A DNA stretch of 64,000 nt from NCBI RefSeq assembly GCF_041053055.1, contig NZ_CP163443.1, positions 1,240,001 through 1,304,000 of the forward strand, given 5' to 3'. Of the stretch, positions 15,863 through 57,042 are shown one piece after another (position 1 is the first letter of the stretch; every line of letters starts with the position of its first letter). The DNA comes from Streptomyces sp. R41. Its GTDB lineage: Bacteria; Actinomycetota; Actinomycetes; Streptomycetales; Streptomycetaceae. The position numbers and the translations under genes were made by a program. The notes below the pieces were generated by a model. The model searched no databases and was not told where the DNA came from. It saw only the letters and a program-made list of their open reading frames with translations.

Positions 15863-15924
15863 GCAGCGGCGCTGCCCAACCCACCGGAACCCGTTGACCA
15901 TTTCTCCGAGGGGACAACACTGAC

Positions 15925-20621: not shown

Positions 20622-20692
20622 GGTGAAAAACTACCAGCAGTGGTGAGTGGGGCCAACGCGCCGACCTGGGGCGCCGCCCTACGTTGGGGCAC

Positions 20693-21846: not shown

Positions 21847-21848
21847 GG

Positions 21849-22700: not shown

Positions 22701-22733
22701 AACTCCTCCTTCTCGGCGGGTGGTCGAGCCGGT

Positions 22734-23624: not shown

Positions 23625-23746
23625 GCCGTACCCCTCCCACATTTGCTTGTTCCTGCAAGATATAGCGAGCTTTCGAGCACAATCAAGCATTCTGCTGGGA
23701 ATGGGGTGCGCTAAGGTCGCGGAAGATCGAGGAATGGAGAGTGCGG
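23625..23746. promoter_or_regulatory. Divergent promoter/operator region of the aga-like locus
   Basis: This 122-bp region between the SIS gene and the DeoR gene is markedly AT-richer than its surroundings (23640-23700). It contains the inverted repeat CTTG-TTCCTG-CAAG near 23646 and the arms GCTT and AAGC enclosing TCGAGCACAATC near 23668. DeoR-family repressors bind such sites, so it probably serves both genes. Confidence 0.5.
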
Positions 23747-24526: not shown

Positions 24527-24531
24527 CGGCT

Positions 24532-27708: not shown

Positions 27709-28488
27709 TCAGGGCCGGCCGGTCACGAACCAGTCGAGTGCCGAGGTCAGTTCCGCCGGCTTCTCCACCGGCAGTTCGTGGCCGGCGTCCACGATCCGCA
27801 CCACGGCGTCCGGGTAGGCCTTCGCCATCCGCAGCATCTGTGAGATGGGCAGTTGGATGTCGTGGTAGCCGTGCACCAGCAGGGTGGGCGTGCGGATCTC
27901 GCCGACCCGGTCGAGGACGTCGAAGGCCCGCATGGCGCCGTAGAGCGTCATGACCACCTCCCGCGGTGTGTCCGCGGAGGCGCGCACGTACTCCCGGATC
28001 TCCTCGCGCGGATAGCCGGGGGCGAAGGCCCGCTGGATGTTGGCGGCGACGAACAGCTTGAAGGGCACCAGCGTGGATACCCCCATCAGCAGACCCCGCC
28101 CCCGGCTGTAGGTCATGCGGCTGATCGAGTTCACCAGCGCCATGCGCTCCACCCGCTCGGGGTGCGAGAGGGCGATGGTCTGCGAGATCATCCCGCCCAT
28201 CGAGTGGCCGACCAGGACGAACCGCTCGACCTTCAGGTGGTCGAGGAGGGCGAGGACGTCCCTCGCCAGCTCCTCGATCGTGCGCACCCCCGCCCCGCTG
28301 CTCTCGCCGTGTCCGCGCAGGTCGAGGCGTATCACCCGGCGCTTCGGGGAGAAGTGCGCCAGCTGGTGGTCCCAGCGGTGCCGGTTCGCCGTCCAGCCGT
28401 GGATGAACACCAAGGGCACACCGTCGCCGTCGCGGGGGCCCTCGTCGTCGTACGTCAGTGCTGCGCCGTCGACTTCGAGCTGCGGCAT
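27709..28488 (-). CDS. Alpha/beta hydrolase
   Basis: Encodes 259 residues from an ATG at 28488 behind AGGAGG. It is a classical alpha/beta hydrolase: oxyanion strand VFIHGWTANRHRW, nucleophile Ser96 in VGHSMGG, acid in VHGYHDIQLP and the catalytic His in DAGHELP. The nearest named groups are 3-oxoadipate enol-lactonase-like and haloperoxidase-like hydrolases; no specific substrate can be read. It is 64 bp downstream of the cluster's Cys-type hydrolase on the same strand, so it may be the last gene of the biosynthetic operon, for example as a type II thioesterase-like editing enzyme. That placement is inference. Confidence 0.85.
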   Translation of the reverse strand: MPQLEVDGAALTYDDEGPRDGDGVPLVFIHGWTANRHRWDHQLAHFSPKRRVIRLDLRGHGESSGAGVRTIEELARDVLALLDHLKVERFVLVGHSMGGMISQTIALSHPERVERMALVNSISRMTYSRGRGLLMGVSTLVPFKLFVAANIQRAFAPGYPREEIREYVRASADTPREVVMTLYGAMRAFDVLDRVGEIRTPTLLVHGYHDIQLPISQMLRMAKAYPDAVVRIVDAGHELPVEKPAELTSALDWFVTGRP

Positions 28489-28552
28489 GGTGCGCCTCCT
28501 GCGATGCGGTCCGGTTACTGCCCGGTACGGTAGCCGCCCGCCCGGGCCGCCG

Positions 28553-29686
28553 TCACCGTCGTTTGCCGAGGAAATCGAGGATGTGCCCGAATACGTCGAG
28601 GGCGGCGCCCCGGCCCAGGAACGTGTCCAGGTGGCCGTAGCCGGGAATCTCGGTGTACTCGACGTCCAATTGGGGCTGCCGGTGGGCGAGTACCTCGTGG
28701 CAGAGCTTCTGGGAGTTCAGCCACAGGCCGTTCTCACTGCCCGCGAGCAGCAGGACGGGGGTGTCGATGCGGGCGGCCGCGTCCAGGGCGTTGGGCGGCA
28801 GTGCCCGGTAGCGGTGGTCGGTGTCGTGCCAGCGAACCACGCTGCGGGCCAGTTCGATGCGGCGCAGATGCGGCAGGATCCACAGCGGCGCGGGGCCCAG
28901 CAGCTCCGCGAGCCGATTGTGGGTGGCCTCGGACAGATGCGCGTGCACGAACAGCGAAGCACCCGTGCCCCACGCCGAGTTGTGCAGGATCTGGCAGGTC
29001 GGATCGGGGCAGCTCGCCTTCCGGGAGGCCAGCGCGAACAGCGGTGTGTACTTGGACCAGAGGCCGACCTTGCGGAAGTCGACCGGGATGTGGTCGATCC
29101 GGGTCTTCAGCAGCTCCCCGGCCACCGACATCCGCAGTGACGTGCGACCGGCGAGCTTCGGCGTCAGGAACACGCCCTGGGACACCACGCCGGCGAGGCC
29201 CGGCACCAGCCCCGCCGCCATGCTCAGCGAGAGGGTGAGGGAGCCGATGCAGTGGGCGACCACGAACAGCGGCCGGTCGCCGATGCGCCCGCGGATGTGG
29301 GCGACGGCCTCGGGGATGTCGTACAGGGCGACGTCGTCGTACGTGTACTTCTGGCCGGTCTCGTTGTACGGCAGCCGGCAGCTGCCCCGCCAGTCGAGCA
29401 GCCACGGCTCGTAACCGTCGTCGAGCAGGACGTCGACCAGGTTGCGGGTCTCCGGCAGCAGGAACATGTCGGCGGACGCGGTGTGTCCGTGCAGGAGCAG
29501 CACGGCGGGCCGGTCCCTCTCGCCGCTGTCGACGCGGGTCAGGCCGAGCCGGACGCCGTCGCTCGCCCGGAAGGGGATCTCCTCGACGGCCGCGAGGCGG
29601 TGGTGGAGCGGGCGCAGGGCGGTGGTGGTCCTGACCCTGCGGAGCGCCGGCCTGGTCCGGGAGGGGGTGGTCGTCCTGAAGATCAT
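28553..29686 (-). CDS. Alpha/beta hydrolase with Cys in the nucleophile elbow
   Basis: Encodes 377 residues. It has the hydrolase fold (VLLLHGHTASADMFLLP, the glycine-bearing elbow, and a C-terminal PGYGHLD with the catalytic His), but the elbow reads VAHCIGSL, placing Cys146 where Ser is usual. The same A-H-C-x-G-S elbow occurs in the hydrolase half of GMC-oxidoreductase/hydrolase fusion proteins annotated as cholesterol oxidases, as I recall them. Its ATG overlaps the stop of the thioester-reductase gene, so it is translationally coupled. It presumably acts on the released or carrier-bound polyketide as hydrolase, lactonase or acyltransferase; which is unknown. Confidence 0.8.
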   Translation of the reverse strand: MIFRTTTPSRTRPALRRVRTTTALRPLHHRLAAVEEIPFRASDGVRLGLTRVDSGERDRPAVLLLHGHTASADMFLLPETRNLVDVLLDDGYEPWLLDWRGSCRLPYNETGQKYTYDDVALYDIPEAVAHIRGRIGDRPLFVVAHCIGSLTLSLSMAAGLVPGLAGVVSQGVFLTPKLAGRTSLRMSVAGELLKTRIDHIPVDFRKVGLWSKYTPLFALASRKASCPDPTCQILHNSAWGTGASLFVHAHLSEATHNRLAELLGPAPLWILPHLRRIELARSVVRWHDTDHRYRALPPNALDAAARIDTPVLLLAGSENGLWLNSQKLCHEVLAHRQPQLDVEYTEIPGYGHLDTFLGRGAALDVFGHILDFLGKRR

Positions 29687-32600
29687 CGGTTGTGCTCCGT
29701 GAGGGTGGGTGTGCGGCGCAGGTCGAGGAGGTCCGCGGCGGCCCGGGCGAAGGGGCCGAGCAGGCCGCGGCCCATCTCCAGGCCGAACCAGGCGAGCCAG
29801 GTCAGTTTGGCGGCCCGTTTCTCCTGGCCGGTCAGGCGTGGGTCGACCTTGATGCCGTCGATCTGGTCGCGTACGTAACTGTCGGCGGGCACGACGACCT
29901 CGCCCGCCAGGGTTGCCGGTTCGCCCTCGCGGCCGATCTCCACGGTCAGGGCGCGGGTCTGCCGCCACACATCGCGGCGGGCCCGGGCGTACTTGCGGCC
30001 CTCCAGCCACCAGAGCCCGCCGTCGGCGTCGCGCAACCGCAGCCGGTAGCAAAGGAGTTGGTGCCGCAGACCGTGCTGCTGCGGGATGCCCTCCTCGGGG
30101 CGTATCCAGACGTCGCCGCGCTCCACGACCAGGGGCTCGGGGTGCACCGCCGTGCACACCAGCTCGCCGCTGACGTCCACCCGGCGCTCCTTCACCAGTT
30201 GGTACATGCTCGCGATGGAGAGGGTGAGCGCCATCGAGCAGGGGGTGTCGGCGGGGGCACCGACCGGGCCCACGCCACCCTCGGTCGTCTCGGAGAACCA
30301 CAGGTAGGGCTGGTCGTCCTTGTGCGGCAGCCGGGCCAGACCGTCCTGGGCGAGCCGCTCGAACGTCTTCAGCTGGGCCTGGGCGTCGTAGCGGGCCGCC
30401 GGCTGAAGCCCGAGCGCCTCGACGAGCGCGGCCGTGCGGTCGTCGTCGGCCGCAGGGCCCTTGAGCGTCGCCTCGCACAGCTTGAGGGCGGTGGGGCTCT
30501 GCAACACACGGGTCAGGAAGGCGAGTTCGGGCACGGGCTCGGCCTCCAGGCGGGCCAGGGCGTCGGTGCGCCACTCGTCCCAGTCCTGTACGCGTACGTG
30601 CATGCCGCCGAACGCCATGTCGCGTACGACGTCGTCGAGGGTGTTGGGCACGCCGGTCAGGTTGTAGTCGTAGCCCCAGGCGTCGGGTTCGCAGATGACG
30701 CCTACCGCCACCCGGCTCACCCAGTCCACCGGGGCCGCGTTCAGGTAGCGGAAGGCGGGCACGGTGCGGAAGCGGCCGAAGGCGGAGATGAGGCCGCTGC
30801 TGAGGTCCTGCGGGTTGTAGGCGCCGGTCTTGGTGTGACCGCCGATGCCGCCGGGGCGCATCGCCGTGACGATCAGACCGTGGTCGCGGGCCCGGCGGAG
30901 CGCGACTTCGGCGGCCCACTTGGTCTGGTCGTATCCGGCTATGAGGCGATCGACGTGGGCGAGCGGGTCGTCCTCGCCCATGGAAGGGATGCCGACCTCG
31001 TTGAAGACCGCGATGGAGGAGATGTGGTGCAGCGGCTTGGGCCGGCCGGTGGCCGCCAGTTCGGCGAGGGTCAGCGAGCCGATGACGTTGCTCTGCCGCA
31101 GCGACTGGTAGCCGCGCAGGAAGTCCACGGCCGCCGCCACGCCGACGACGCTGTCCAACTCGTGGGCGAGCGTGTTCCACAGGTCGTCGGGCAGGCCGAG
31201 GTGCGGGCGCCGGATGTCGCCGGGAAGCACGGTCACCCGGCGGCGGATCTCCGACGACCAGGGCAGCCGGTAGCTCTTCAGCGCCTCGCCGAGCCGGGCG
31301 ACGGCTGCCTCCTGGTCGGCCGCGCGGACCAGGCAGTAGACGTGGGCATCGCTGTGCCGCAGCAGATCGAGGAGCATGTGGCTGCCGAGGAAGCCGGTGG
31401 CGCCGGTCAGCAGGAGCCGCCGGGGTGGCAGCGGCTCGGGCGAGGCGGTCCAGGGCAGACGGTCGGCGAGGGCGAGGTCGGCCAGGATCTGGTCGAGGTC
31501 CTCGCGGCGGGCCTTGGCGTACGGGGCGTCGTCGCTGCCGGGCTGGAGGGGGGTCGCCACCGCGGGTGGGGTCCGGGGGGACGGGATCGGGAGGGTGCTC
31601 GGGGCGGAGGCCGGGAGGGTGCCCGCGGCGGACAGCGGGAGGGTGCCCGGGGCCGGCGAGGTGCCGGTCGCGGTGTCCGCGTGGACCGAAGTGGGCCTGG
31701 GCGCCGGGGTTTCCGACGTGACGTGCGGCGCCGGGGTTCCCGACTCGGCCGTGGTCCAGGTCGCCGCGGGCGCGGGAGTTGCTGATGTACCCGTGACCGA
31801 CGGGGCGGCCGTGCCCCCGGTCGTCGACAACCAACGCCGGGCGAGGCTGCGCGGCCGGGCGTCGGCGAACACGTCGTCCAGGGCGATCTCCATGCCCAGC
31901 GCGCGTTCCAGCTCCGCGACGAGTTCGACGGCGCCGACGGAGGAGCCGCCGGCGTCGAAGAAGTCGGTGTCGGGCGACAAGTGCCCCTCAGGCAGATAGG
32001 GCCCCGCCGCGGCGGCGATGACCGCGGAGAGGCCGTCCACGTCCTGGGGCACGGCGGTGCCGACACCCGAATCCGACGCGGTGCCCGTCGCTCGGTCTGT
32101 GGTGAAGTCCGCGTGAGCGCCGGTCGGTTGGGATCGGGCGAGGTCCATGGCCAGGCCGGCCGACTCGGGCGAGGCGGAGTCTGTGGCGACGGCGGCCGCC
32201 CCGGGCAGGGCCGAGTCCGCGACCGGGCCCCCCGACCCGGCCAAAGCAGCGTTCGCGACGTCGCCAGTCGAACCGAGCCAGGCGGATTCCGTACCGGTCA
32301 CGGCCGGCGAGAGCATGGCGGAGTCCATACCGCTGCCCGCCGACTCGGACACGGCAGCGTCCGTGACGACGCCGGTCGCCTCGGACGAGGCAGAGTTCGC
32401 GACGACCCCAGCCACCCCCGGCGAGGCAGCCTCCGTGACGACGCTGGTCGCCCCGGCCGAGGCAGCGTCCGTACCGGTCACGGCCGGCCGCAGCGCGCCG
32501 GAGTCCATACCGCTGCCCGCCGACTCGGACACGGCCGACCCGAGCGAGGCAGCGTCCGAGACGACCCCAGCCGCCCCCGGTGAGGCAGCGTCCGTACCGG

Positions 32601-32781
32601 TCACGGGCCGCCCGAGTACGGCGGAGTCCGTCCCGACGCCCGCCGACCCGGCCGAGGCCGCCGACCTGACCCTGGCCAGCAGAGCGTCCACGCTGAGTCC
32701 GCCGCCGCCCCGCTCGATGGACTCGCCGGTCGCCCGCTGTCCGTCGGCGTACGCCGACGCGTCCTCGTTCACATCACGCAT
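29683..32781 (-). CDS. Carrier protein-thioester reductase with repeat-rich N-terminus
   Basis: Encodes 1032 residues. Residues about 40-235 are an Ala/Ser/Gly/Thr/Val-rich repeat region. A carrier domain spans about 245-320 (FDAGGSSVGAVEL, phosphopantetheine Ser281). A Pro/Thr/Ala linker (about 325-430) leads to a thioester reductase of the NAD_binding_4 type: TGATGFLGSHMLLDLL near 455 and the catalytic Tyr617-xxx-Lys621 in YDQTKW. The last 210 residues (about 820-1032) form a beta-rich domain with SIASMYQLV and LCYRLRLRDADGG; it resembles the segment joining oxidoreductase and hydrolase halves in GMC-hydrolase fusions. Thioester reductases release carrier-bound acyl chains as aldehydes or alcohols using NAD(P)H. 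It lies 63 bp after the megasynthase. Confidence 0.88.
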   Translation of the reverse strand: MRDVNEDASAYADGQRATGESIERGGGGLSVDALLARVRSAASAGSAGVGTDSAVLGRPVTGTDAASPGAAGVVSDAASLGSAVSESAGSGMDSGALRPAVTGTDAASAGATSVVTEAASPGVAGVVANSASSEATGVVTDAAVSESAGSGMDSAMLSPAVTGTESAWLGSTGDVANAALAGSGGPVADSALPGAAAVATDSASPESAGLAMDLARSQPTGAHADFTTDRATGTASDSGVGTAVPQDVDGLSAVIAAAAGPYLPEGHLSPDTDFFDAGGSSVGAVELVAELERALGMEIALDDVFADARPRSLARRWLSTTGGTAAPSVTGTSATPAPAATWTTAESGTPAPHVTSETPAPRPTSVHADTATGTSPAPGTLPLSAAGTLPASAPSTLPIPSPRTPPAVATPLQPGSDDAPYAKARREDLDQILADLALADRLPWTASPEPLPPRRLLLTGATGFLGSHMLLDLLRHSDAHVYCLVRAADQEAAVARLGEALKSYRLPWSSEIRRRVTVLPGDIRRPHLGLPDDLWNTLAHELDSVVGVAAAVDFLRGYQSLRQSNVIGSLTLAELAATGRPKPLHHISSIAVFNEVGIPSMGEDDPLAHVDRLIAGYDQTKWAAEVALRRARDHGLIVTAMRPGGIGGHTKTGAYNPQDLSSGLISAFGRFRTVPAFRYLNAAPVDWVSRVAVGVICEPDAWGYDYNLTGVPNTLDDVVRDMAFGGMHVRVQDWDEWRTDALARLEAEPVPELAFLTRVLQSPTALKLCEATLKGPAADDDRTAALVEALGLQPAARYDAQAQLKTFERLAQDGLARLPHKDDQPYLWFSETTEGGVGPVGAPADTPCSMALTLSIASMYQLVKERRVDVSGELVCTAVHPEPLVVERGDVWIRPEEGIPQQHGLRHQLLCYRLRLRDADGGLWWLEGRKYARARRDVWRQTRALTVEIGREGEPATLAGEVVVPADSYVRDQIDGIKVDPRLTGQEKRAAKLTWLAWFGLEMGRGLLGPFARAAADLLDLRRTPTLTEHNR
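32291..32535 (-). repeat. 180-bp-period repeat in the thioester-reductase N-terminus
   Basis: GTACCGGTCACGGCCGGC occurs at 32291-32308 and 32471-32488, and a 35-bp stretch beginning GAGTCCATACCGCTGCCC occurs at 32321 and 32501. All are exactly 180 bp (60 codons) apart and in frame. Further partial copies of the first element lie near 32591. The encoded protein is a set of degenerate units of the form V-T-G-T-D-A-A-S. It is probably disordered. Confidence 0.8.
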
Positions 32782-32844
32782 GAGAGCCCTTCACGTTGTG
32801 CCTCGTCCTCTCGCTCATTGCTGCCGACGGCCGAAGCCGCCCGG

Positions 32845-41800: not shown

Positions 41801-44800
41801 CCCGCGTTGCCTACGACGCCCGCGGCCGAGGAGACGAGCAGGAAGAGGTCGAGGGGCGCGTCGGCGGTGAGCCGGTGCAGGTGGGCGGCGCCGTCGACCT
41901 TGGGGCGCAGCACCTGTGCCAGGCGTTCGGGCGTCAGCTCGGCGACCACCCCATCGGCCAGGATGCCGGCGCAGTGCACGACGCCGCGCAGCGGCAACTC
42001 ATCGCCGATACGGCCGAGTACGTCGGCCACGGCCGCCGCGTCCGCGATGTCGCACGCCGCCACCTCGACCTCGGCGCCGAGCGCGGTCAGTTCCACGGTG
42101 ACCTCGGCGGCACGTGGGTCGTCGGGGCCCTGACGGGAAGTCAACAGCAGGCGTGGGACGCCATGTTCAGCCAGGAGCCGGGCGATGTGCCGGCCGACCG
42201 CGCCCAGGCCTCCGCTGATCAGCACCGTGCCGTCGGCGGGCACCAGGGTGGGGCGGCCGACCAGGTCGAGGACTACGGGGCCGCCGGACGCGATCCCCCG
42301 GCGTATCGCCTCGCGGGCAGCCGTGACGGGAAGGACCCGGGTGTGCGCGGGACGCGGCTGCCTGGCGGTGACGGCCTCGCGCAGGGCCGCACCGAGCTGT
42401 TCACGGTCCACCGTTTCAGTGAGGGCGAGGGGCAGGACGGCAGCGCCGGTGAACGGCAGGTCGTCCGGGAGCACCGCGACCAGCCGCGCGTCGGCGACCG
42501 CCTCGGAGCCGGGCGCACTGTCGGCGAGGGCGACGACCCGCAGGCCGGGGGCGAATTCCTCGACGTCGGCGCCGACCTCGGTGAGCACACCGGCGCACAG
42601 TGTCTCGTCACCGGGGAGGCGGGCCGAGTTGGGGTGCACGGCGAACGCGTGCACCTGGATCCTCACCTGGCCGGGGGCCAGGGAGGCCTGGGACGCCACC
42701 GCGCGAAGAGTCGGGTCCGCCGGTAGACCGGCCAGCTCGTAGTGGTCCCCGGCCGGGATCCGCAGTGTTTCCGGCGCGCGGGCGCGCACCAGCCGGGGTA
42801 CGAGCAACGCGCCCGCGCGGAAGGCTAGTTCTGGCTCGTCGGTGTGTGCGGCGGTGGCCGGCAGGGCGACGCCCACGGGATCGGCGCCGTCGAGGTCGAG
42901 CAGGGTCAGGCCGAGGTCCGGGTGTTCGGTGCGGGCGCTTCGGGCCAGGCCCCACAGCACCGACTGGGCCAGGCCGGGCACCGTGTCCCCGTCGCCGGCC
43001 GCGACCGCGCCGCGGGTCACCCAGACGGTCCGAGTCGGCGCCTCGCCCTCCGGGAGGGCGATCAGGGCCTGCAGCTCGGCCAGTGCCGTGGCCGCCAACT
43101 CCTGTGCGGCGACGGCCGGTTCGGCGTCCGTCCCCGGGCGCGGCCAGAATCGTACGAGGACGTCGGCGCCCGTCTCGCGCACCTCGATCCCCGACGCCTC
43201 AAGGCCTCGCAAGGCTGCGACGACCTCCGGGTCCGAGCGGTCTCCGACGACGGCCCAGTCGGTACCCGGCGTCCCGGTGGGCTCCTCGGGCGCCGCTGTC
43301 CAGACCACCTCGTACAGGTGCCTGCCGCTCTCCGAGCCGCCGTTCAGGTCCGCCGGGTCCACGGCCCGCAGCCGTACGCCCTCCAGTCGGCCCGCCGGGA
43401 GACCGTCCGCGTCCCACAGCGTCACGTCCAGGGTGAGGTCTGTCCCGGAGCCGCCCGATCGGCGTACGCGCGCGGTGAGTTCGCTCGCGCCGCCGAGCGG
43501 CAGGACGCAGCGGCCCACCGCGACCGGCAGCAGCACGCGGCCCTCGGACGCGTCGAACGCGGCGGTCACGTGCAGCGCGGCGTCCAGCAGCGCCGGGTGG
43601 ACCGGGTACGGGTCCGCCGCGTCGCGGACCACGGACGGCAGCGAGAGCCGGGCCAGCAGCTCGCCGTCACCGGTCGCGACCGCCGACCGTACGCCCTGGA
43701 AGGCCGGGCCGTAGCCGAGGCCGAGCCCGGTGAGCCGCTCGTACGTCTCCTCGCTCCAGGCCGGTTCGGCGGCCTGCGGCCACACCGGCGGCTGCCCCGC
43801 CGTCACCGGTGCGGGCTCGGCCGCCGACGCCGTGGCGTGCAGGGTCCAGCCCATGGCCTCCTGGCCGCGCGGACGGCTGTGCACGGTGATCTCCGGCACG
43901 GGACCGGCGGTGGACACCTCGACCGACACCTCGGCCGTGCCGGACTCGGGCAGGGTGAGGGGCGCGAGGAGGAACAAGTCGGTGACGTCACCCGGATCGT
44001 CCGGGCGGGCCACGGCGAGCGCGGCGCGGCACAGCTCCATCAGTGTGGTGCCCGACACCACGGTCCGCCCGAAGACGGTGTGGTCGGGCAGCCAGTCGGC
44101 GGTGGCCGTGGACCACTCGTTGCGGAAGGTCCAGCGGGTCTCGTCCGCGGACTGCAGCTGGATGCCGAGCAGCGGGTGCGCGGCACGGTCGAAGAGGCCC
44201 GGGGCGCCGGCGGCGGACTCGGGCTCGATCCAGTAGCGCTGCGGGTCCCAGGCGTACGTCGGCAGGTCCGCCGGTTCGGCGTCGGCGACCACGCGGCGCC
44301 AGTCGATGTGCCGTCCGTGGACGTGGAGTTCGGCGGCGGCGCGGTCCAGGCAGACGGGCCCGTCCTCGTCGCGACGGAGCGATCCGACGGCGACCAGGTC
44401 GTCGTGGCCGGCGTCCTCCGCGACGGTGCGCAGTGCGGTGAGCAGGGACGGGTGGGGGCCGAGTTCGACGAAGTGGCGGTATCCGTCGGCCGCCATGCGC
44501 TCCACGGTGGGCCCGAAGCGGACGGGTTCGCGGAGGTTGGTGTACCAGTAGTCCGCTTCCAGCTCCTCGGTGACCGGCTCGCCGGTGACCGTCGAGTACC
44601 AGGCGACGGAGGTCGGGTAGGTGATGACACCGTCGAGTTCGTCGAGGATCGTCGCGCGGACCGGCTCGACCTGGGCGCTGTGGGAGGCGTAGTCGACGTC
44701 GAGGCGGCGGGCGAACACCTGCGCGCGGTCGAAGTCGGCCAACAGCGCTTCCAGCGGCTCCACTTCACCGGCGATCACCGTCGAGCGTCCGCTGTTCACG

Positions 44801-47800
44801 GCGGCGACGGAGACCCGGCCGTCGAATTCGGCGAGGCGTGCCTCGACCTCGGTGTGCGGCAGGGCGACGACCGCCATGGTGCCGGAGCCGGACAGCTCGG
44901 TCAGGGCCTGGCTGCGCAGGGCGACGACCGCCGCCGCGTCGTTGAGGCTGAGCGCCCCGGCGACACAGGCCGCGGCCACCTCGCCCTGGCTGTGCCCGAT
45001 CACTGCGTCCGGGCGTACGCCCCGAGCCCGCCACACGGCGGCCAGGGACACCATCACGGCGAAGAGGACCGGCTGGACGACGTCCACGCGGTCCAGGGGC
45101 GGGGCGCCCGCGTCACCGCGCAGGACGGCCGCCACCGACCAGGTGGTGAACGGGCGCAGGGCGGCGTCGCAGCGGTCCAGTTCGTCCACGAACACCGGGG
45201 AGCCGTCGAGCAGATCCCGGGCCATGCCGGCCCACTGGGAGCCCTGACCGGGGAAGACGAAGGCCAACTTGGCTGCGGGCAGGGCCTGTTGGGGGCCGAC
45301 GGTCAGGTCGGCGTCGGGCTGCCCCTCGGCGAGACCGTGGAGCGCGGTGAGCAATTCGTCGCGGTGGGCGGCCTGGACGACGGCTCGGTGCTCGAAGTGC
45401 GTGCGGTGGTGGGTCAGCGTCGCGGCCGCACCGGACAACGGCAACTGCGGCTGCGCCGCCAGCGCTTCGGCCAGGCGGGCCGCCTGCCCCTGGAGGGCGG
45501 GGAGGGTACGGGCGGAGAGCGGGAAGAGGATCTTTGCGGGCAGTTCGACGGTAGGCTCTTCGAGGGGCGACGGTTCGGAGAGCTCCGGCTCGATCGTCTG
45601 CTCGTCGGCTCGGCTCGGCTCGGCGGGCTGTCCCGAGCGCCTCCCCTCGGCCGAATCGTCTTCGGCGGGCCTCGGCTCGGCAACCTGCCCTTTGACCCGG
45701 CTCCGCTCCGCGGGCAGCTGTTCCGAGCGGTTCCCCGCGGCCATCTGCTCTTCGACGTGCCTCGGCTCGGCAACCTGCGCCTCAGCCTGGCTCGGCTCGA
45801 CGAGCAGCGGATCGGAGTGCTCCGCCTCGGCCGAATGGTCTTCGGCGGGCTTCGACTCGGAGGCCTGCCCTTTGACCCGGCTCCGCTCGGCGGGCAACTG
45901 TTCCGAGCACTTCCCCCCTGCCGCCTGCTCTTCGACGTGCCTCGGCTCGGGTACCTGCGCCTCGGCCTGGCTCGGCTCGGCGGACAGCTGTTCGGAGTGC
46001 TTCGCCTCGGCCGACTGCTCTTCGACGTGCCTCGGCGCGGCAACTTGGCTCGGCTCGACGGGCAGTGGATCGAAGTGCTCCGCCTCAGCCGAATGGTCTT
46101 CGGCGGGCTTCGACTCGGCCAACTGCTCCCCGACAGGCCTCGACTCGGCCAACTGCTCCTCGACGGACGGCCGTTCGGCGGCCTTCGGCCGTCGAGTCTG
46201 CTCTTCGGCAGGCCTCGGCTCGACGGGCAGCTGTTCGCCTGGATCAGGCTCAGCAGTCCGCTCTTCGACTCGCCTCGGCGGGGCGGCCGGCGCTTCGACC
46301 CGCCTCGGCCCGGCAGGCGGCTGCCCAGCGGTCAACCGCTGGGCGGGCCGTCGCTCGGCTGCCGGCCGTGCCAGGTCCTCCGGCGCCTCCTCCAGCACCA
46401 CGTGCGCGTTCGTCCCGCTGATCCCGAACGCGCTCACCCCGGCCCGCCGCACCCGGTCGCCGCCTCGCGGCCACACCTGGGCGCTGCTGTGCACGCGGAG
46501 GCCGCTGTCCGGCCAGTCGACGTGCTCGGTCGGGTTCTCGGCGTGCAGCGAGGCCGGGAGCAGTTCGTGGCCGAATGCCAGCACCGTCTTGATGACGCCC
46601 CCGATGCCCGCCGCGGCCTGTGTGTGCCCGATGTTGGACTTCAGCGAGCCGACGCCGAGCGGCCGGCCGGCCGGACGGCCCGGTCCGAAGACGGCGGCCA
46701 GCGCCCGCCCCTCGATGGGGTCGCCCAGCCGTGTGCCCGTGCCGTGCGCCTCGACGTAGTCCAGGTCGTCCGGCCGGAGCCCGGCGGCGTCGAGCGCGGC
46801 GCGCAACACCCGCTCCTGGGCGGGGCCGTTGGGGGCGCTGAGGCCCTGACTGCGCCCGTCCTGGTTGATCGCGGACCCCTTGACGACCGCGAGGACCCGG
46901 TCGCCGTCCCGGCGCGCGTCCGCGAGCCGTTTGAGCAGCACCAGGCCGCAGCCCTCGGCCCACACCACGCCGTCCGCGTCGGTCGAGAACGGGCTGCACC
47001 GTCCGGACGGCGAGAGCCCGCGCAGTCGGCTGAACTCGACGTGCCCGCGCGGCGTCACAAGGAGCGTCGCGCCGCCCGCCAGCGCGAGGTCGCACTCGCC
47101 GCTGGCCAGCGCCCGCGCCGCCAGGTGCAGGGCGACGAGGGAGGAGGAGCAGGCGGTGTCGACGGTCACCGCCGGGCCCTGGAGGCCGAGGGTGTAGGCG
47201 ATGCGCCCCGAGGCCACACTGGACGCCGAGCCCGTGCCGACGTGCCCGTCGAGCTGCCCCAGTCCGGCCGAGGCCAGGTACCCGCTGTCGTACAGGCCGA
47301 GGTAGACGCCCGTGGAGCTGCCGTTCAGCGTCTGAGGGACGATCCCGGCGCGCTCGATCGTCTCCCAGGTGGTCTGCAGCAGGAGCCGCTGCTGCGGGTC
47401 CATGGCCGCGGCCTCGCGCGGCGAGATCCCGAAGAAGGGCGCGTCGAAGCGGTCGATGTCGGAGAGGAACCCGCCGCGCAGGGTGTACGCCTTGCCGGTG
47501 GCCTCCGGGTCGGGGTCGTAGAGCCCCTGGGTGTCCCAACGGCCCGCGGGCACCTCGGTGATGGCGTCCTCGCCCGCGACCAGCAGCCTCCACAGCGCCT
47601 CGGGGTCGTCGGCGCCGCCGGGGAAGCGACAGGCCAGGGAGATGATCGCGATGTCGTCATCGGCCCGCGCGGCCGTGCTCGCCGACGTCGCGTCCGCCGC
47701 CGTCGCGACGGCAAGCCCGTCGTCGAGAACCGCCTCGGCGAGCGCCGCGATCGTGGGGTGGTTGAAGACGAGGGACGGCTCCAGGGACCGTCCGATCAGC

Positions 47801-47994
47801 GTGGACAGCTCCGCGGCCACTGTCACCAACTGACGTGATCCCAGGCCGAATTCGGCGATCGGACGCTCGGGGTCGAGGGTCAGCGGGTCGAGCCCGGCCT
47901 CCTCGGCGACGGCCGACACAAGCCAGGCCCGCACACCCTCGGAGTTCGTGACGGACGTCTTGGGGGTCTGCTTCGGGGAGTCGTTCGCAGGCAT
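32845..47994 (-). CDS. Bimodular type I polyketide synthase with terminal C-FkbH
   Basis: Encodes 5049 residues. Domain order with marker residues: loading carrier (Ser53); KS1 (Cys282, His417); repeat-rich linker (about 541-820); AT1 (Ser1002 in GHSQGE; YASH near 1101, methylmalonyl type); DH1 (His1305, Asp1471); truncated ER-like region (about 1745-1915); KR1 (GGLGAVG, Tyr2069); ACP (Ser2232); KS2 (Cys2468); AT2 (Ser2914; FASH near 3015, specificity unclear); DH2 (His3214, Asp3378, full HxxxGxxxxP); KR2 (Tyr3833, LDD motif); ACP (Ser3993); condensation domain (HHAVSD, His4188); FkbH-like HAD (DGDET, Asp4715/4717) with a C-terminal GNAT-like part. FkbH domains load glyceryl units from 1,3-bisphosphoglycerate onto carriers. 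The chain is presumably started by the adjacent fatty acyl-AMP ligase and passed to the following carrier-reductase. Confidence 0.93.
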   Translation of the reverse strand: MPANDSPKQTPKTSVTNSEGVRAWLVSAVAEEAGLDPLTLDPERPIAEFGLGSRQLVTVAAELSTLIGRSLEPSLVFNHPTIAALAEAVLDDGLAVATAADATSASTAARADDDIAIISLACRFPGGADDPEALWRLLVAGEDAITEVPAGRWDTQGLYDPDPEATGKAYTLRGGFLSDIDRFDAPFFGISPREAAAMDPQQRLLLQTTWETIERAGIVPQTLNGSSTGVYLGLYDSGYLASAGLGQLDGHVGTGSASSVASGRIAYTLGLQGPAVTVDTACSSSLVALHLAARALASGECDLALAGGATLLVTPRGHVEFSRLRGLSPSGRCSPFSTDADGVVWAEGCGLVLLKRLADARRDGDRVLAVVKGSAINQDGRSQGLSAPNGPAQERVLRAALDAAGLRPDDLDYVEAHGTGTRLGDPIEGRALAAVFGPGRPAGRPLGVGSLKSNIGHTQAAAGIGGVIKTVLAFGHELLPASLHAENPTEHVDWPDSGLRVHSSAQVWPRGGDRVRRAGVSAFGISGTNAHVVLEEAPEDLARPAAERRPAQRLTAGQPPAGPRRVEAPAAPPRRVEERTAEPDPGEQLPVEPRPAEEQTRRPKAAERPSVEEQLAESRPVGEQLAESKPAEDHSAEAEHFDPLPVEPSQVAAPRHVEEQSAEAKHSEQLSAEPSQAEAQVPEPRHVEEQAAGGKCSEQLPAERSRVKGQASESKPAEDHSAEAEHSDPLLVEPSQAEAQVAEPRHVEEQMAAGNRSEQLPAERSRVKGQVAEPRPAEDDSAEGRRSGQPAEPSRADEQTIEPELSEPSPLEEPTVELPAKILFPLSARTLPALQGQAARLAEALAAQPQLPLSGAAATLTHHRTHFEHRAVVQAAHRDELLTALHGLAEGQPDADLTVGPQQALPAAKLAFVFPGQGSQWAGMARDLLDGSPVFVDELDRCDAALRPFTTWSVAAVLRGDAGAPPLDRVDVVQPVLFAVMVSLAAVWRARGVRPDAVIGHSQGEVAAACVAGALSLNDAAAVVALRSQALTELSGSGTMAVVALPHTEVEARLAEFDGRVSVAAVNSGRSTVIAGEVEPLEALLADFDRAQVFARRLDVDYASHSAQVEPVRATILDELDGVITYPTSVAWYSTVTGEPVTEELEADYWYTNLREPVRFGPTVERMAADGYRHFVELGPHPSLLTALRTVAEDAGHDDLVAVGSLRRDEDGPVCLDRAAAELHVHGRHIDWRRVVADAEPADLPTYAWDPQRYWIEPESAAGAPGLFDRAAHPLLGIQLQSADETRWTFRNEWSTATADWLPDHTVFGRTVVSGTTLMELCRAALAVARPDDPGDVTDLFLLAPLTLPESGTAEVSVEVSTAGPVPEITVHSRPRGQEAMGWTLHATASAAEPAPVTAGQPPVWPQAAEPAWSEETYERLTGLGLGYGPAFQGVRSAVATGDGELLARLSLPSVVRDAADPYPVHPALLDAALHVTAAFDASEGRVLLPVAVGRCVLPLGGASELTARVRRSGGSGTDLTLDVTLWDADGLPAGRLEGVRLRAVDPADLNGGSESGRHLYEVVWTAAPEEPTGTPGTDWAVVGDRSDPEVVAALRGLEASGIEVRETGADVLVRFWPRPGTDAEPAVAAQELAATALAELQALIALPEGEAPTRTVWVTRGAVAAGDGDTVPGLAQSVLWGLARSARTEHPDLGLTLLDLDGADPVGVALPATAAHTDEPELAFRAGALLVPRLVRARAPETLRIPAGDHYELAGLPADPTLRAVASQASLAPGQVRIQVHAFAVHPNSARLPGDETLCAGVLTEVGADVEEFAPGLRVVALADSAPGSEAVADARLVAVLPDDLPFTGAAVLPLALTETVDREQLGAALREAVTARQPRPAHTRVLPVTAAREAIRRGIASGGPVVLDLVGRPTLVPADGTVLISGGLGAVGRHIARLLAEHGVPRLLLTSRQGPDDPRAAEVTVELTALGAEVEVAACDIADAAAVADVLGRIGDELPLRGVVHCAGILADGVVAELTPERLAQVLRPKVDGAAHLHRLTADAPLDLFLLVSSAAGVVGNAGQSNYAAANVFLDQLAHHRRSLGLPGVSVSFGAWAGEGLAAEHADLERMARLGHRALTPDQGRDLVELSLRRGAPHLVAWALDLPRLRDNSTTVGGTSASLWRSLLPAPRTGRDGGDGLADRLARLPEAERAERVLALVREEASRALCLRSAESVRPDQPLRELGMDSVTAVDLRNRIGTRIGAKLPATLLFDHPTPARLAEYLLTTALATGSRTTRRTAPDTQPARTTASASDEPVALVAMACRLPGGVSDPDGLWRLVAEGRDAVGPFPAGRWDVESLYDPDPEALGKSYAREGGFLEDLESFDAGFFGITPKEAAAMDPQQRLLLETAWEALERAGIVPAALAGSTTGVYVGMFGSDYLSGSRLDQLDGYVGTGSALSVASGRLAYVLGLGGPALTVDTACSSSLVALHLAAQALRSGECDLALAGGVTLMVTPQTFVEFSRLRGLSPTGRCRSFSDGADGAIWAEGAGMVVLKRLSDARRDGDEVLAVLRGTAVNQDGRSQGLSAPNGPAQEQVIRRALELSGLGPADIDYVEAHGTGTTLGDPIEANALSEVFGDSRPPGRPLYLGSLKSNIGHAQAASGVLGLMKVVQSLRQETLPRTLHADTPSRHVDWDGSGLQLLQEAVDWPSSQERVRRAGVSAFGISGTNAHLIVEEAPPVEAEPTGELPPGKRLFVLSGRSESAVRGQAARLAEHLRDDTVALPDIAHTLARHRSHFERRATIVAGDANELRTVLDALATGRKPLAPPREEQTGKVAFVFAGHGGQWPGMGLESMADSEAFRDELARVDEAVRRHVGWSVLNVLRAPEEFSPLDRTEYLQPVLFAVNAALAAAWRALGVTPDAVVGHSLGEIAAAYSVGALTLDEAVTVVSGRAQAVVPLVGHGGMQAVELPRAEVEKLLAPYADRLFVAAVNSQNSTAVSGETDALAELRQHLEERAIPVRRLSTAFASHTPLMDPLREELLDRFSGVRGTRTPTPLYSAVLAEPVPGDRLDAEYWFANLRQPVRFADAIRRMLDDGYRYFVELSPHPSLIPSIEAVAAEAGIDAVGVGSLRRQQDGRDVLLRRLGELYEAGHTPDWPVVFREGRRIDLPTYAFARERHWLAPAPAAASGASPLLGTHIEASDEPERHIFQSDIDLRDSRFGYLTDHRVTGEVWLPGAAFLGMALEGASALHGGGEVRLADVRFIQPLRLDTDRPVRLQLVLRPAEDGFRDFTIASAAAGERGTRWERHAVGQVAVGAMEPVADARFAALREHCTQEVDLSGVYGRLATLGIDYGPAFRGLEAGRRADSAALGRLADKPAAGHLLHPAVLDAAFHVAALPGNAPEGRAFVPAGVGRLRFTGLRTTPTWVTCALRSVDGDTATLDLRLWDENEQLVLEAEEFELAALSPLDGALFETSWQPRPDAHERPAEGSWLILADETGVAAELAERLGSSVPHVIARRGQEFGLEAPGRYILDPTDPQHLARLFDEAFTDGPPERVVQLSSLDAPEIGDARTAEEAARLCCLSTLHLVRTLADRPQGRAPRLFVVARGSQAAGDSTQVTHPQQALAWGFGLAVAQEYPELSTTLIDLPGTDGTDALWTQLRHADDERLVALRESGRLVPRLARTRPDDGGHAEVTPDGVHLITGGLGGLGRVVAERLVRGGARRLALMSRGTPDADTAGWIKGLQERGVTVHLARADVADRDGLSAALEAVRREAGPIAAVVHAAGVLDDATVANLTDERVLRVLAPKVLGTALLTELIPEAGNLVLFASAAGLLGSAGQSPYSAANAFLDAWAHHLARTDRRALSLDWGTWEGVGMVTESGARAAEAGRSGLVAFSPQDGGELFDRVLATSRRQLAPIALDWEMLALDPDAARTRPILGDLVTVPVGTADSDGLVKKVFAATTNQDRAEWLEAYVRARVGEVSGGVVDVFATSALKELGLDSLMLVRLRNAFARELGVELPAAAVFSASDVRSLARTLGEALPERNTAAHEEDPQAEAAVEVPESELRPATRDVVRLLRSAQPGMPDAAHGVGLAVRLATPTTRETLTDIVTRLAGRHAALRTAVVNSAEGGRQLRVVRDVAQPVLSWTTAEGELDAVDGLRRLLEPPFDLANPSLWRFELLDGGVRGQVLVFGAHHAVSDLQSLLLVAGEIDAELSGTSLGDAVTNRDIHLLIEAQQSGDAPGAGAAEWREAFHGSARLDLTLARPRPAARSYRAGSVTVAIPDGLMERVSAAASGLAITPAAFCLGTLTVLLARKRERERFVLAVPVDTRIHADAYDAVGFFGVPVPFPAEARPGERIEEVLRRTDRRLDRVLAKGAMFSDVLSTLAQQGLYRANAPLVEVYFNYVRSSAGRLTNLEVLPAGTGYTDLDLMITMTPDAGRVRLDHNLDILDAATSTGLGEEFVRLLAEAVEVPAAQVRTAVEDPMAAVRTVVEDPMAAVGTTLEVAPVVAETRAMAGATAAEEPAASPRPSLALAATFALGDLPLLCQAAANEGTRDGGPTVAEAPYHQVLAGLRDPSGVFADPTTAVGVVLLRAVDLERFGPVDDALLAELRTEYPAALRALSERTRKPLIVGFLPSVREEERLARWEREMAAELAELPGIAVLRPDDWTRHHAVEEPFDERTERLAHLPFTPRFQAAVALRLAEVVRAVRRPAPKVIAVDGDETLWGGVAGEIGTEAVDLAGPRALLARRLLQWRAAGALLALVSNNDEDTVRAVLERPDSLLKAEHFSVLSATWGPKSGRLAETARTLNLGLDSFLFLDDNPVEIGGVRSALPQVLSVTCPPAPELEDFLGRLWPLVPAAATAEDALRAEFYEQERERDAVREQAGFEEFLAQLELEVDIRALSEADVQRADQLVRRTNQFTLRARSADGGDLARWRENGEVWTVAARDRFGDYGQIGLLAVRPDGDQLDVLAWLMSCRALGRGVEERLLQWLAVRADELGCAKVRLTAERTPRNVPARRLLAALGGGDQDDERLESVATPEHLRAFRSWQRR
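34522..34587 (-). repeat. 33-bp in-frame tandem duplication
   Basis: Two copies of a 33-bp unit (11 codons, ending E-D-P-M-A-A-V) lie back to back in the linker between the condensation and FkbH domains of the megasynthase, differing by one base. It is a recent, length-neutral expansion of a flexible linker. Confidence 0.75.
45540..46370 (-). repeat. Repeat-rich insert between KS1 and AT1
   Basis: About 275 codons between the KS1 and AT1 folds consist of Glu/Pro/Ala/Ser/Gln-rich repeats: PRHVEEQ occurs three times, SEQLPAERSRVKGQ twice and AEDHSAEAEH twice. At the DNA level TTTGACCCGGCTCCGCTC recurs at 45691 and 45871 (180 bp apart), and TTCGGCGGGCTTCGACTCGG at 45841 and 46099. The usual KS-AT linker is a folded domain of about 100 residues, so this is a large, probably disordered, expansion. 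Confidence 0.85.
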
Positions 47995-48193
47995 CTGGAA
48001 AAGGTGTCCTCATGAACTCGGGCTCAGGCGATTTCCGTACGAGCGGGACGGCTGGAATGCCCGGTGGGCGTACGGCTGAAGTGGCCGGCGCACGACGGAT
48101 TCGGGCAGCGCGCGACCAGGGGTGGCCGGTGTGCGACCGGTACGACCGTGATGCCGCCGCCGACGCGGACATGCCCGTCGGCGGCGGGTGACG

Positions 48194-49918
48194 TCATCTC
48201 GTGGCGGGCTCGCCGACCACCGAGAGGGTGCCGTCGAGGTACGCCGCCCGGGAGGCACGGCGCTGGATCTTGCCGCTGGACGTCTTGGGGATGGTGCCGG
48301 GGTGGACCAGCACGACGTCGCGCAGCGACAGGCCGTGGGCCTCGCCGATCGCGCTGCGGATCAGGTCGGTGATCTTCTCGGTCTCGCCCGCCGCCTCCGG
48401 GGCCGTCTCGGCGACGACGACGGGCTGCTCGCCGAAGACTCCGCCGTCCACGGAGAAAGCCGCGGTGCAGCCGGGCCGCAGCGCCCAGTGGCACATCTCG
48501 GCGGACAGCTCCAGGTCCTGCGGGTAGTGGTTGCGCCCGTCGATGACCATCAGGTCCTTGAGGCGGCCGGTGACGAACAGTTCGCCGTCGCGCAGGAACC
48601 CGAGGTCGCCGGTCCGCAGGAAACGACCCTCGCGGTCCTTGAGGGTGGCCCGGAAGGTCTCGCGGGTGGCGAGGGCGTTGCGCCAGTAGCCCTTGGCGAC
48701 GCTCGCGCCGCCGACCCAGATCTCGCCGACCTCGCCCTCGGGCAGCTCCTCCTGCCGCTCGGGGTCGGCGATCACCACGGTCGCGCCGGGACCGGGCCGC
48801 CCTGAGCTGACCGCCGCCGCGTCCGCCGCGCCGGCGTGCGGCCCGGTCTCGGCGGCCTCGATCAGGGTGGGCGGGGCCTGCACCGAGCTGCCGGTGACCA
48901 TCAGGGTGGCCTCGGCCAGGCCGTAGCAGGGGTACAGGGCCTCGCGGCGGAAGCCGACCGCTCCGAAGGCTTCGGTGAATCGCCGAAGGGTGGCGGCCCG
49001 CACCGGTTCGGCGCCGTTGAAGGCGACCTTCCACCGGCTGAGGTCGAGTCCATCGAGGAGGTCGGGCGTGGCGTGCTTCAGGCACAGCTCGTACGCGAAG
49101 TTGGGGCCGCCGCTGGTGTGCGGGCGGTAGCGGCTGAGGGCGGTCAGCCAGCGCTGGGGCTGCTGCAGGAAGTGCAGCGGTGAGAAGAGCGTGGCGGTCA
49201 CGCCGAGGTAGACCGTGTTCAGGACCGGGCCTATGAGACCCATGTCGTGGTACACGGGCAGCCAGCTGACGAACAGTTCGTGGTCGTACTCCGCGATCGT
49301 GTCCGGGGTGTGGCCCATCCGCTCCGTGATGACCCGCTCGTTGTCCAGCAGGTTCCCGTGGGTCACCATCACGCCGCGCGGGGCGGAGGTGGACCCGGAG
49401 GTGTACTGGAGGAAGGCGACCGAGTCGGCGGTGAGGTCGGGTTCGCGCCAGGAGTCGGCCGCCTGGTCGGGGATGTCCTCGGTGGCGACGCAGGTGATGC
49501 CGTCCAGTTCGGGCAGGTGTTCCGCCATGGCTCCGAGGGTGGCGATCACCTCGCGGCCGCCCAGGATCACCTTGACGTCCGCGTCGGCTATCAGGCGCTT
49601 CATGCGGATCAGGGCGCGGTGGTTCTGCGAGCGCCCCTGCGGGGGCACGCCCGGCACGGCGACGACTCCGGCCGACAGGCAGCCCAGGTAGCCGCAGATG
49701 AACTCGAGGCCGGGCGGATACAGCAGCATCGCACGGGAACCGGCCAGGCCGCGCTCCTGCAGCCAGGCGGCGACGGCTCGGGACCGGCCGGCCAGACGCC
49801 CGTAGGAGATGTCCTGGATCTCTCCGTCACAGTCACCTGTGACGAGATAGCGGTAGGCGGTCCGGTCGGGCTGTTGCGAGGCATGCGCGGTCAGCAATTC
49901 GACCAGGGAACGAGCCAT
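48194..49918 (-). CDS. Fatty acyl-AMP ligase (FAAL)
   Basis: Encodes 574 residues of the adenylate-forming superfamily: P-loop YTSGSTSAPRGVM, SWLPVYHDMGLIG, NGAEPVR, YGLAEATLMVTG, RTGDLGFL and the C-terminal Lys in PKTSSGKIQR. The region before RTGDLGFL is spaced like FAALs, which have an insertion that blocks CoA use and which hand fatty acyl-adenylates to carrier proteins of lipid-priming polyketide synthases and peptide synthetases. It is the first gene of the cluster, 199 bp upstream of the megasynthase, whose N-terminal carrier (Ser53) is the obvious acceptor. The gap between the two is long for a coupled pair, so an internal promoter is possible. Confidence 0.9.
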   Translation of the reverse strand: MARSLVELLTAHASQQPDRTAYRYLVTGDCDGEIQDISYGRLAGRSRAVAAWLQERGLAGSRAMLLYPPGLEFICGYLGCLSAGVVAVPGVPPQGRSQNHRALIRMKRLIADADVKVILGGREVIATLGAMAEHLPELDGITCVATEDIPDQAADSWREPDLTADSVAFLQYTSGSTSAPRGVMVTHGNLLDNERVITERMGHTPDTIAEYDHELFVSWLPVYHDMGLIGPVLNTVYLGVTATLFSPLHFLQQPQRWLTALSRYRPHTSGGPNFAYELCLKHATPDLLDGLDLSRWKVAFNGAEPVRAATLRRFTEAFGAVGFRREALYPCYGLAEATLMVTGSSVQAPPTLIEAAETGPHAGAADAAAVSSGRPGPGATVVIADPERQEELPEGEVGEIWVGGASVAKGYWRNALATRETFRATLKDREGRFLRTGDLGFLRDGELFVTGRLKDLMVIDGRNHYPQDLELSAEMCHWALRPGCTAAFSVDGGVFGEQPVVVAETAPEAAGETEKITDLIRSAIGEAHGLSLRDVVLVHPGTIPKTSSGKIQRRASRAAYLDGTLSVVGEPATR

Positions 49919-50500: not shown

Positions 50501-51082
50501 GTGAGACGAATCAGAAAAACATGGGTGACGCTGGCGCTCATGGGCGCTGCGCTGGGGATGGCGCCGGTACCGGCCGACGCCGCCACGCTCACCACCGCAC
50601 AGACCACTGCCTGCCCCACCGGTTGGGGCAGCCTGGACAAAAAGGCCGCCTCCAGCACGACGGCGCCGCTGACGGACATCAGGACCGGCCGCCACGCCTG
50701 CTACGACCGGATGGTCTTCGACATCCCCGGCGGCGGCAGCGACGGCCTCGGCTACTGGGTCAGGTATGTCGACCACCTCTACCAGGACGGATCGGGTCGC
50801 CTCATACCTGTCGGCGGCGGAGCCGTCCTCGAGGTGCGCGTGGCCGCACCCGGCTACGACCCCGAGACCGGCGCACCCACCTACCCCGCGCGGGCAGGTC
50901 GCCCCCTGCCGGGCGTGGACCTCACCGGATACCGCACCTTCAGGGACACTCGGTTCGCGGGCAGCTTCGAGGGCGAGACGCAGGTCGGACTCGGAGTCCG
51001 CGCCCGACTGCCCTTCCGGGTAGTGCAGTTGACCGACCGTGTAGTGGTGGACGTCGCCCACAACTGGACGGGCGCACGCTGA
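50501..51082 (+). CDS. Secreted AMIN-like domain protein
   Basis: Encodes 193 residues from a GTG at 50501 behind GGGGGACACA. It has a classic signal peptide: basic start VRRIRKTW, hydrophobic core LALMGAALGMAPV and a cleavage site after A-D-A. The mature part (RTGRHACYDRMVFDIPGG, YWVRYV, LEVRVAAPGYDP, FRVVQLTDRVVVDVAH) matches the actinobacterial AMIN-like family, a beta-sandwich related to the peptidoglycan-targeting AMIN domain. It has two Cys residues that could form a disulfide. It is likely exported and cell-wall-associated; the role is unknown. A strong hairpin follows the gene. Confidence 0.8.
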   Translation: MRRIRKTWVTLALMGAALGMAPVPADAATLTTAQTTACPTGWGSLDKKAASSTTAPLTDIRTGRHACYDRMVFDIPGGGSDGLGYWVRYVDHLYQDGSGRLIPVGGGAVLEVRVAAPGYDPETGAPTYPARAGRPLPGVDLTGYRTFRDTRFAGSFEGETQVGLGVRARLPFRVVQLTDRVVVDVAHNWTGAR

Positions 51083-51096
51083 CAGCCGGCGGTTCG

Positions 51097-51137
51097 CCAG
51101 GCGGTACCGCCTCGAGCGGAGAGGCGGTACCGCCTGG
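51097..51137. terminator. Strong 17-bp stem terminator hairpin
   Basis: CCAGGCGGTACCGCCTC (51097-51113) and its exact reverse complement (51121-51137) flank a 7-base loop, 14 bp past the stop of the AMIN-like gene. Each arm also contains the palindrome GGCGGTACCGCC. There is no T-tract. This is a very stable intrinsic terminator candidate. Confidence 0.8.
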
Positions 51138-51267
51138 CAGCGGGCTGCCCGTCGGCCGGAAGGCTTCTTCCAGCATTCACGACACCATCATGTCCAGGCT
51201 GTTGAGCACGTCCGGGATCGAACTAGCGTCTTCTGGTCCGCTCGAACCAACAGAAGTAAGGCTTTCC

Positions 51268-54138: not shown

Positions 54139-54157
54139 ACCTCCAGAGTAGGCACGT

Positions 54158-57009: not shown

Positions 57010-57042
57010 GGCAGCCTCCCGTGCCCGGCATCCCCACGTCCG

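Follow-up and report, generated by a model that had tools for sequence, protein, structure and literature searches.

A five-gene operon of Streptomyces sp. R41 is, by sequence, the orthologue of the foxicin (fox) gene cluster, and it probably couples a short, branched polyketide with a unit derived from glycerol and releases the product as an aldehyde, a chemistry unrecognised in the published fox pathway. The operon occupies 27709-49918 of the DNA analysed here (the window: 64,000 nucleotides, positions 1240001-1304000 of a 10.46-Mb genome in a single contig, NZ_CP163443.1). Its genes all lie on the minus strand:

48194..49918, minus: fatty-acyl-AMP ligase (FAAL), 574 amino acids (aa), FoxBI orthologue (NCBIfam models; 86% identical to the Tue6028 protein)
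32845..47994, minus: polyketide synthase (PKS), 5049 aa, FoxBII orthologue (domain scans; 77-82% identical to the 4807-aa Tue6028 protein over the three best aligned pieces)
29683..32781, minus: protein of an acyl carrier protein (ACP), a thioester reductase (TR) and a domain X, 1032 aa, FoxBIII orthologue (domain models and Tue6028 alignment)
28553..29686, minus: Cys-nucleophile alpha/beta-hydrolase, 377 aa, FoxEI orthologue (AHCIGS motif; 88% identical)
27709..28488, minus: Ser alpha/beta-hydrolase, 259 aa, FoxEII orthologue (GHSMGG motif; Abhydrolase_1, 121.5 bits; 90% identical)

By these coordinates, 199 bases separate FAAL from PKS, 63 PKS from TR protein and 64 the two hydrolases, and the Cys-hydrolase start overlaps the TR-protein stop by four bases. 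Domain scans found every gene and the whole domain string that the initial annotation had named here, the Cys-type hydrolase being a separate gene, and added a relic enoylreductase, a NEX-type stretch, domain X and the second hydrolase with its Ser nucleophile.

Statements on foxicin draw on the accessible portion of the paper that describes it (PMC5318452). The fox cluster of Streptomyces diastatochromogenes/sp. Tue6028 (KT440882) shares five genes, their order and their domain string with the window. Its table lists foxBI (583 aa), foxBII (4807), foxBIII (945), foxEI (378) and foxEII (259), then two transporter genes, foxRV (261), foxGII (306) and foxGIII (283). The published FoxBII string is ACP-KS-AT-DH-KR-ACP-KS-AT-DH-KR-ACP, C, FkbH (KS, ketosynthase; AT, acyltransferase; DH, dehydratase; KR, ketoreductase; C, condensation). 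The Tue6028 genome (L082) holds open reading frames (ORFs) of exactly 583, 4807, 945, 378 and 259 aa in fox order, and the window DNA aligns there, which is the ground for calling the two orthologous. Six main pieces within 27694-49942 align at 81.8-86.9% identity, the repeat linkers and the relic-enoylreductase area falling outside them, and three pieces of the far flank, within 11637-24529, align at 87-88%. The TR protein is 66% identical over its full length, repeat linker included, and 87% in TR and X; the published identity range for fox-type clusters is 73-96% (PMC5318452). Tue6028 and the window also share the HxxxGxxxxS motif of the first DH and a downstream DeoR/SIS/aldolase flank, whereas the window has a longer insert between KS1 and AT1 than Tue6028 or the other close relatives compared.

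A single-crossover disruption of foxBII abolished foxicins, and foxicin A, the only product we found tied to the fox architecture, consists of the two-module chain in amide linkage to an acetamido-hydroxy-quinone (PMC5318452). The initial annotation had known of no characterised pathway with exactly this order and had said that a characterised cluster of the same architecture with a known product would count against its proposal; the fox cluster is one, with order, product and disruption. Its description of the pathway as lipid-primed is likewise doubtful, as isobutyrate and two methylmalonates are the chain's building blocks according to the foxicin authors (PMC5318452).

Two enzyme assignments underlying the published fox pathway are at odds with the sequences. 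FoxBI was taken for an amino-acid adenylation (A) domain, but the Tue6028 protein scores 429 bits as a FAAL versus 142 for the A-domain model; its window orthologue scores 435.6 and 441.2 bits with NCBIfam FAAL models versus 140.3 for amino-acid adenylation, while staying below every single FAAL equivalog cut-off. FoxBIII was given a thioesterase, but in Tue6028 it carries a thioester reductase (242.8 bits, cut-off 213.35). Our literature search, which covered sources other than subscription journals, found no paper that corrects FoxBI or FoxBIII or links fox to BurF, the malleicyprol enzyme discussed below; the eight papers found to mention foxicin do not include the one on BurF (PMC12304814).

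The window PKS reads ACP-KS-AT-DH-(relic ER)-KR-ACP-KS-AT-DH-KR-ACP-C-NEX-FkbH (ER, enoylreductase). The domains that bear on the argument, including those of the TR protein, are:

44314..45261, minus: AT1, GHSQG and YASH motifs, which we take to be of the methylmalonyl type
43354..44178, minus: DH1, HxxxGxxxxS motif (domain scan and motif comparison)
about 42280..42792, minus: relic ER of module 1, preceding the catalytic KR half (ADH_N, 16.1 bits, E 0.014, below the cut-off of 23.5)
38608..39525, minus: AT2, GHSLG and FASH motifs (domain scan)
36406..38457, minus: last-module DH2 and KR2 with canonical motifs, as in most relatives (domain scan)
34579..35736, minus: C domain, HHAVSD motif (72.9 bits)
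33880..34407, minus: NEX-type N-terminal FkbH extension, so named from its position (term from PMC12304814)
32914..33876, minus: FkbH glyceryl transferase/phosphatase domain, DGDETLW and MSCRALGR (TIGR01686)
31834..31995, minus: ACP, proposed glyceryl thioester site (PP-binding, 45.4 bits)
30490..31413, minus: TR, GATGFLG and YDQTK (TIGR01746, 239.6 bits, cut-off 213.35)
29686..30486, minus: domain X, after TR, eight strands predicted

TIGR01686 identifies FkbH in two scans (428 and 423 bits; cut-off 146.65) and has no other match in the genome. Tetronate pathways of the RK-682 type use an FkbH-derived glyceryl-S-ACP, as proposed for the window; a KAS III (FabH-like) gene, a tetronate trait, was absent from Pfam scans of the five operon proteins, in which ACP_syn_III matched once, below cut-off and over 31 residues of KS2. 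The Pfam scan of the protein covering 33880-34407 gave no match to the NEX stretch, and domain X likewise matched no Pfam family; the modelled fold of X is probably a barrel. The closest TR relative of solved structure is MxaA (E 5.4e-56).

The foxicin authors tie the HxxxGxxxxS change in DH1 to a beta,gamma double bond (PMC5318452). This form occurs in 13 of the 15 module-1 regions compared, window and Tue6028 counted, G072 having C and G085 (Streptomyces sp. yr375, L104) the canonical P. In the latter the module-1 DH is 37% and the KR 54% identical, with KS1 at 87% and AT1 at 82%, which looks like a domain exchange. The module-1 ER appears to be a relic without the NADPH-binding core; similar pieces were matched in G024, G124, G118 and G085 and not in the remaining close relatives compared. 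Repeats mark three linkers: in-frame tandem repeats of 30, 78, 90 and 180 bp at 45611-46179 encode a long Glu/Pro-rich insert between KS1 and AT1, whose spacing exceeds that in the other close relatives compared; the zone 34502-34612, between C and NEX, holds a 33-bp in-frame repeat; and in-frame repeats (36 and 123 bp) at 32346-32651 underlie an Ala/Ser-rich N-terminus of the TR protein.

We next consider how far this terminal arrangement extends, using 77 relative loci that were found via X and hence contain TR and X by construction, which does not hold for C-NEX-FkbH or the Cys-hydrolase. In 66 of them the fetched stretch reaches the C domain, and all 66 carry C, NEX, FkbH, ACP, TR and X in window order, so that FkbH always sits between C and ACP-TR, a regularity well beyond what chance would give; our script flagged L137 as out of order owing to an extra ACP match upstream of C. 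The Cys-hydrolase follows in 65 of the 66, the exception being L095, whose stretch ends just past X. Catalytic motifs are kept almost throughout: HHxxxD of the C domain and SCRxLGR of FkbH in 66/66, the TR motifs in 77/77, and the Cys nucleophile in 76/76 (AHCxG in 75, AQCIG in L129). FkbH DxDxT is found in 65/66 by a looser pattern, the miss being the frame-broken L101, and in 47/66 by a stricter one. The 259-aa Ser-hydrolase (>60% identity) accompanies 52 of 58 close relatives, the incomplete L095 being one of the six misses, and none of 19 distant ones; because of these counts, we place it outside the terminal cassette.

The cassette occurs in at least eight actinobacterial genera (Streptomyces, Amycolatopsis, Nocardia, Actinomadura, Kitasatospora, Actinacidiphila, Catenuloplanes and Rhodococcus), and the cluster type is common, with a TR-X match in 21 of 199 sampled Streptomyces genomes, that of the window included; the accessible part of the foxicin paper reports none outside Streptomyces (PMC5318452). 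The Rhodococcus loci are on plasmids, and the full cassette was read in one of them (L153, R. pyridinivorans P23 plasmid pB), where genes for a crotonyl-CoA carboxylase/reductase and two glycosyltransferases come after it. What stands in front varies: a FAAL and two modules in close relatives; a FAAL fused to the PKS in one open frame (G198, 5025 aa; Nocardia, 5335 aa); a loading module with several modules (G014, G203, G219); or an AT-less line (L137 by Pfam; L140 and L142 look alike). By sequence comparison, then, C-NEX-FkbH, ACP-TR-X and the Cys-hydrolase form a portable set behind two-module, larger and AT-less PKSs. Two loci show altered frames: in S. anandii (L101/G129) the TR match is split over frames of 499 and 445 aa and the PKS frame is broken too, presumably by frameshifts or sequencing errors, and in G118 a split TR match lies inside one open frame, an in-frame insertion.

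Sixty-two loci extend 4.6 kb or more ahead of C; among these, KR matches lie near C in 60 cases and DH matches in 61. In L137 (S. coeruleorubidus) the last module consists of KS and ACP with neither KR nor AT by Pfam, and in L140 (Streptomyces sp. DHE7-1) the interval from the last KS to C is free of KR and AT matches; in both a DH match precedes the last KS. By analogy, C may receive a beta-keto chain in these two AT-less lines, and closure may follow as for malleicyprol, provided that no trans-acting KR steps in.

The closest precedent for such an ending is BurF, in which a C domain forms an ester and a reductase (Red) frees an aldehyde, which then cyclises to a butenolide; mutating the C-domain His or the Red Tyr abolishes activity, and substrates without the beta-keto group yield trappable aldehydes (PMC12304814). 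BurF and, as proposed here, the window have in common an ester-forming C, NEX, a carrier (T), reductive release and a fatty acid extended twice, and the window and its relatives carry the same set of HHxxxD C domain, NEX (by position), carrier and GxxGxxG/YxxxK reductase. They differ in that BurF lacks the catalytic part of FkbH, BurJ/BurH loading another alpha-hydroxy acid, whereas the window keeps it; moreover, the BurF chain is beta-keto, whereas the last window module has intact KR and DH. The BurF authors report FkbH subdomains alongside 95% of NEX orthologues and consider that BurF lost them (PMC12304814); the fox cassette looks like the malleicyprol release module with FkbH still intact. 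The text of the BurF paper makes no mention of an X/Cys-hydrolase pair (PMC12304814). A second precedent comes from the accessible part of the vioprolide paper, where a FAAL followed by C-FkbH gives a fatty acyl-glycerate ester (PMC8949500). The start of that synthetase shares with the proposed window pathway a FAAL-loaded acyl chain, an ester-forming C and an FkbH-loaded glycerate; unlike that pathway, it shows no reductive release at the glycerate point in that part. The vioprolide glycerate reportedly sits within a larger peptide line.

The tail of the cassette has a counterpart of its own. The Cys-hydrolase matches by profile (E 1.6e-22) the end of a GMC oxidoreductase fusion (Bernardetia, L154) that keeps X-like and Cys-hydrolase parts in window order, with a GMC oxidoreductase where the window has its thioester reductase, and on a Pseudonocardia plasmid a 40%-identical hydrolase adjoins a divergent GMC gene. 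GMC oxidoreductases likewise produce carbonyls. Because both partner enzymes can do so, the association suggests, without proving, that the X/Cys-hydrolase pair works on the aldehyde or an ester of it.

From these comparisons we arrive at a reading that we hold to be fairly likely: the acyl chain would be esterified to glyceryl-S-ACP and released by TR as an acyl-glyceraldehyde on which X and the Cys-hydrolase act next. The FAAL would activate a short branched acid (isobutyrate in the foxicin proposal) or a fatty acid onto the first ACP, and two methylmalonyl-type extensions with KR and DH would give a 2-methyl-2-enoyl chain, as expected of a last module with intact KR and DH; in foxicin the chain would be 2,4,6-trimethylhepta-2,5-dienoyl. 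FkbH would load glyceryl from 1,3-bisphosphoglycerate onto the ACP of the next protein, being the only candidate for that ACP because the FAAL is the only adenylating domain found by scanning the operon proteins. The C domain would then esterify the chain onto a glyceryl hydroxyl, and TR would reduce the thioester and free an O-acyl-glyceraldehyde. Given a methylated, sp2 alpha carbon in the chain, this aldehyde should persist without a malleicyprol-type Knoevenagel closure, available for hydrolysis or acyl transfer by X and the Cys-hydrolase; in Tue6028 the acyl group would end on the aminoquinone as the amide foxicin. FAAL loading, FkbH-derived glyceryl, C-domain ester and reductive release, all proposed in the initial annotation, fit the anatomy and the BurF and vioprolide precedents, while neither glyceryl incorporation nor an acylated glyceraldehyde is shown in the accessible portion of the fox paper (PMC5318452).

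Several points weigh against this mechanism. FAALs usually take acids longer than isobutyrate, and the ester regiochemistry is drawn by analogy alone. Mean pLDDT of the predicted structures is middling for X (70.0) and low for the Cys-hydrolase (51.8), and the profile match of X to the middle domain of the GMC-X-hydrolase fusion is weak (E 0.00025, probability 43%). MxaA belongs to an alcohol-making four-electron system (per PMC12304814). The link of foxicin to foxBII rests on one single-crossover disruption, and foxicin A, in the accessible portion, has no visible glyceryl ester or aldehyde (PMC5318452). Either the acyl group moves from acyl-glyceraldehyde to an amine, or the link to foxicin is less direct than the disruption suggests. 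The former could be general: the cassette might be a portable acyl-donor release that packages polyketide acyls as 2-O-acyl-glyceraldehydes, with imine formation between the aldehyde and an amine, or acyl uptake by the Cys-hydrolase, before an O-to-N acyl shift with glyceraldehyde leaving. This would parallel in biology the glycolaldehyde-ester ligation of peptide chemistry and, if true, would explain foxicin as an amide without glyceryl; we regard it as a long shot.

Were TR to carry out a four-electron reduction, the product would be an alcohol, a branched-acyl monoacylglycerol, with no free aldehyde, but the conserved X/Cys-hydrolase tail is common to GMC oxidoreductases, which are carbonyl makers. 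MxaA as the nearest solved TR and myxalamid, named as an example of four-electron reduction to an alcohol, favour this outcome, while BurF, the closest architectural precedent, gives aldehydes (PMC12304814); on balance we think it unlikely. A malleicyprol-like outcome, reductive release and then Knoevenagel closure giving a hydroxymethyl-butenolide, would follow from the C-NEX-T-Red logic shared with BurF, and a beta-keto chain could reach C in L137 and L140; in the window, however, the intact KR and DH of the last module, and the methylmalonyl specificity that the foxicin authors give to both ATs of the orthologue (PMC5318452), which leaves no acidic alpha CH2, make it very improbable here. 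We give equally little credence to a bypass of the C-FkbH-TR end, with the acyl-ACP chain used directly for a foxicin-like amide and glyceryl uninvolved: in foxicin A the two-module chain is indeed present as an amide and glyceryl is absent, but almost all relatives retain the catalytic motifs of C, FkbH, TR and the Cys-hydrolase, which argues for their use. Hardly credible to us is the published model itself, which makes FoxBI an A domain, gives FoxBIII a terminal thioesterase and couples an amino acid to the glyceryl carrier protein. It has the foxBII disruption and the nitrogen in the foxicin ring in its favour (PMC5318452), but in Tue6028 FoxBI scores as a FAAL and FoxBIII exceeds the cut-off of the thioester reductase model, homologues of foxRV, foxGII and foxGIII occur in the fetched stretch of only 2 of the 77 loci besides the window, and the FoxA orthologue lies far away, at 4.69 Mb.

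The published 41-ORF cluster also looks too large, and the core looks to be five genes, because neighbouring genes are not conserved. Besides the window, the DeoR, SIS and aldolase flank is found in 2 of 77 loci (S. albiflavescens and Tue6028), some fetched stretches being incomplete. Homologues of foxRV, foxGII and foxGIII are present in the window flank; DNA alignment gave no match in the window to the Tue6028 stretch bearing ORFs of foxTVI/VII length and none beside the operon to the foxGI/foxA side. The FoxA orthologue at 4.69 Mb is 82% identical, a second relative (59%) lies at 2.40 Mb, and within the 20 kb fetched around the former there was no match to foxGI or GAPDH. A crude gene caller placed the 259-aa hydrolase downstream of the Cys-hydrolase in 46 of 76 loci, against 16 for the family that ranks second there; of the 14 regions compared upstream of the FAAL, at most 5 share any one family, the G085 region among the 14 covering hardly 1 kb. 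Because most relatives lack the flank, we did not count the nearby sugar genes foxGI-III and foxA as defining a fox-type cluster. Upstream of the window operon lie a weakly glycerophosphodiester phosphodiesterase-like gene (51007-52335, plus), a PolX-type polymerase (52378-54243, minus) and an RtcB ligase (55597-58218, minus), as far as seen unrelated to it.

What is new here is mostly reinterpretation: the reassignment of FoxBI and FoxBIII, the five-gene core and the spread of the cassette. The corrected core makes the pathway directly testable in vitro, and a terminal cassette that recurs behind different PKSs would constitute a natural module for glyceryl-ester reductive release.

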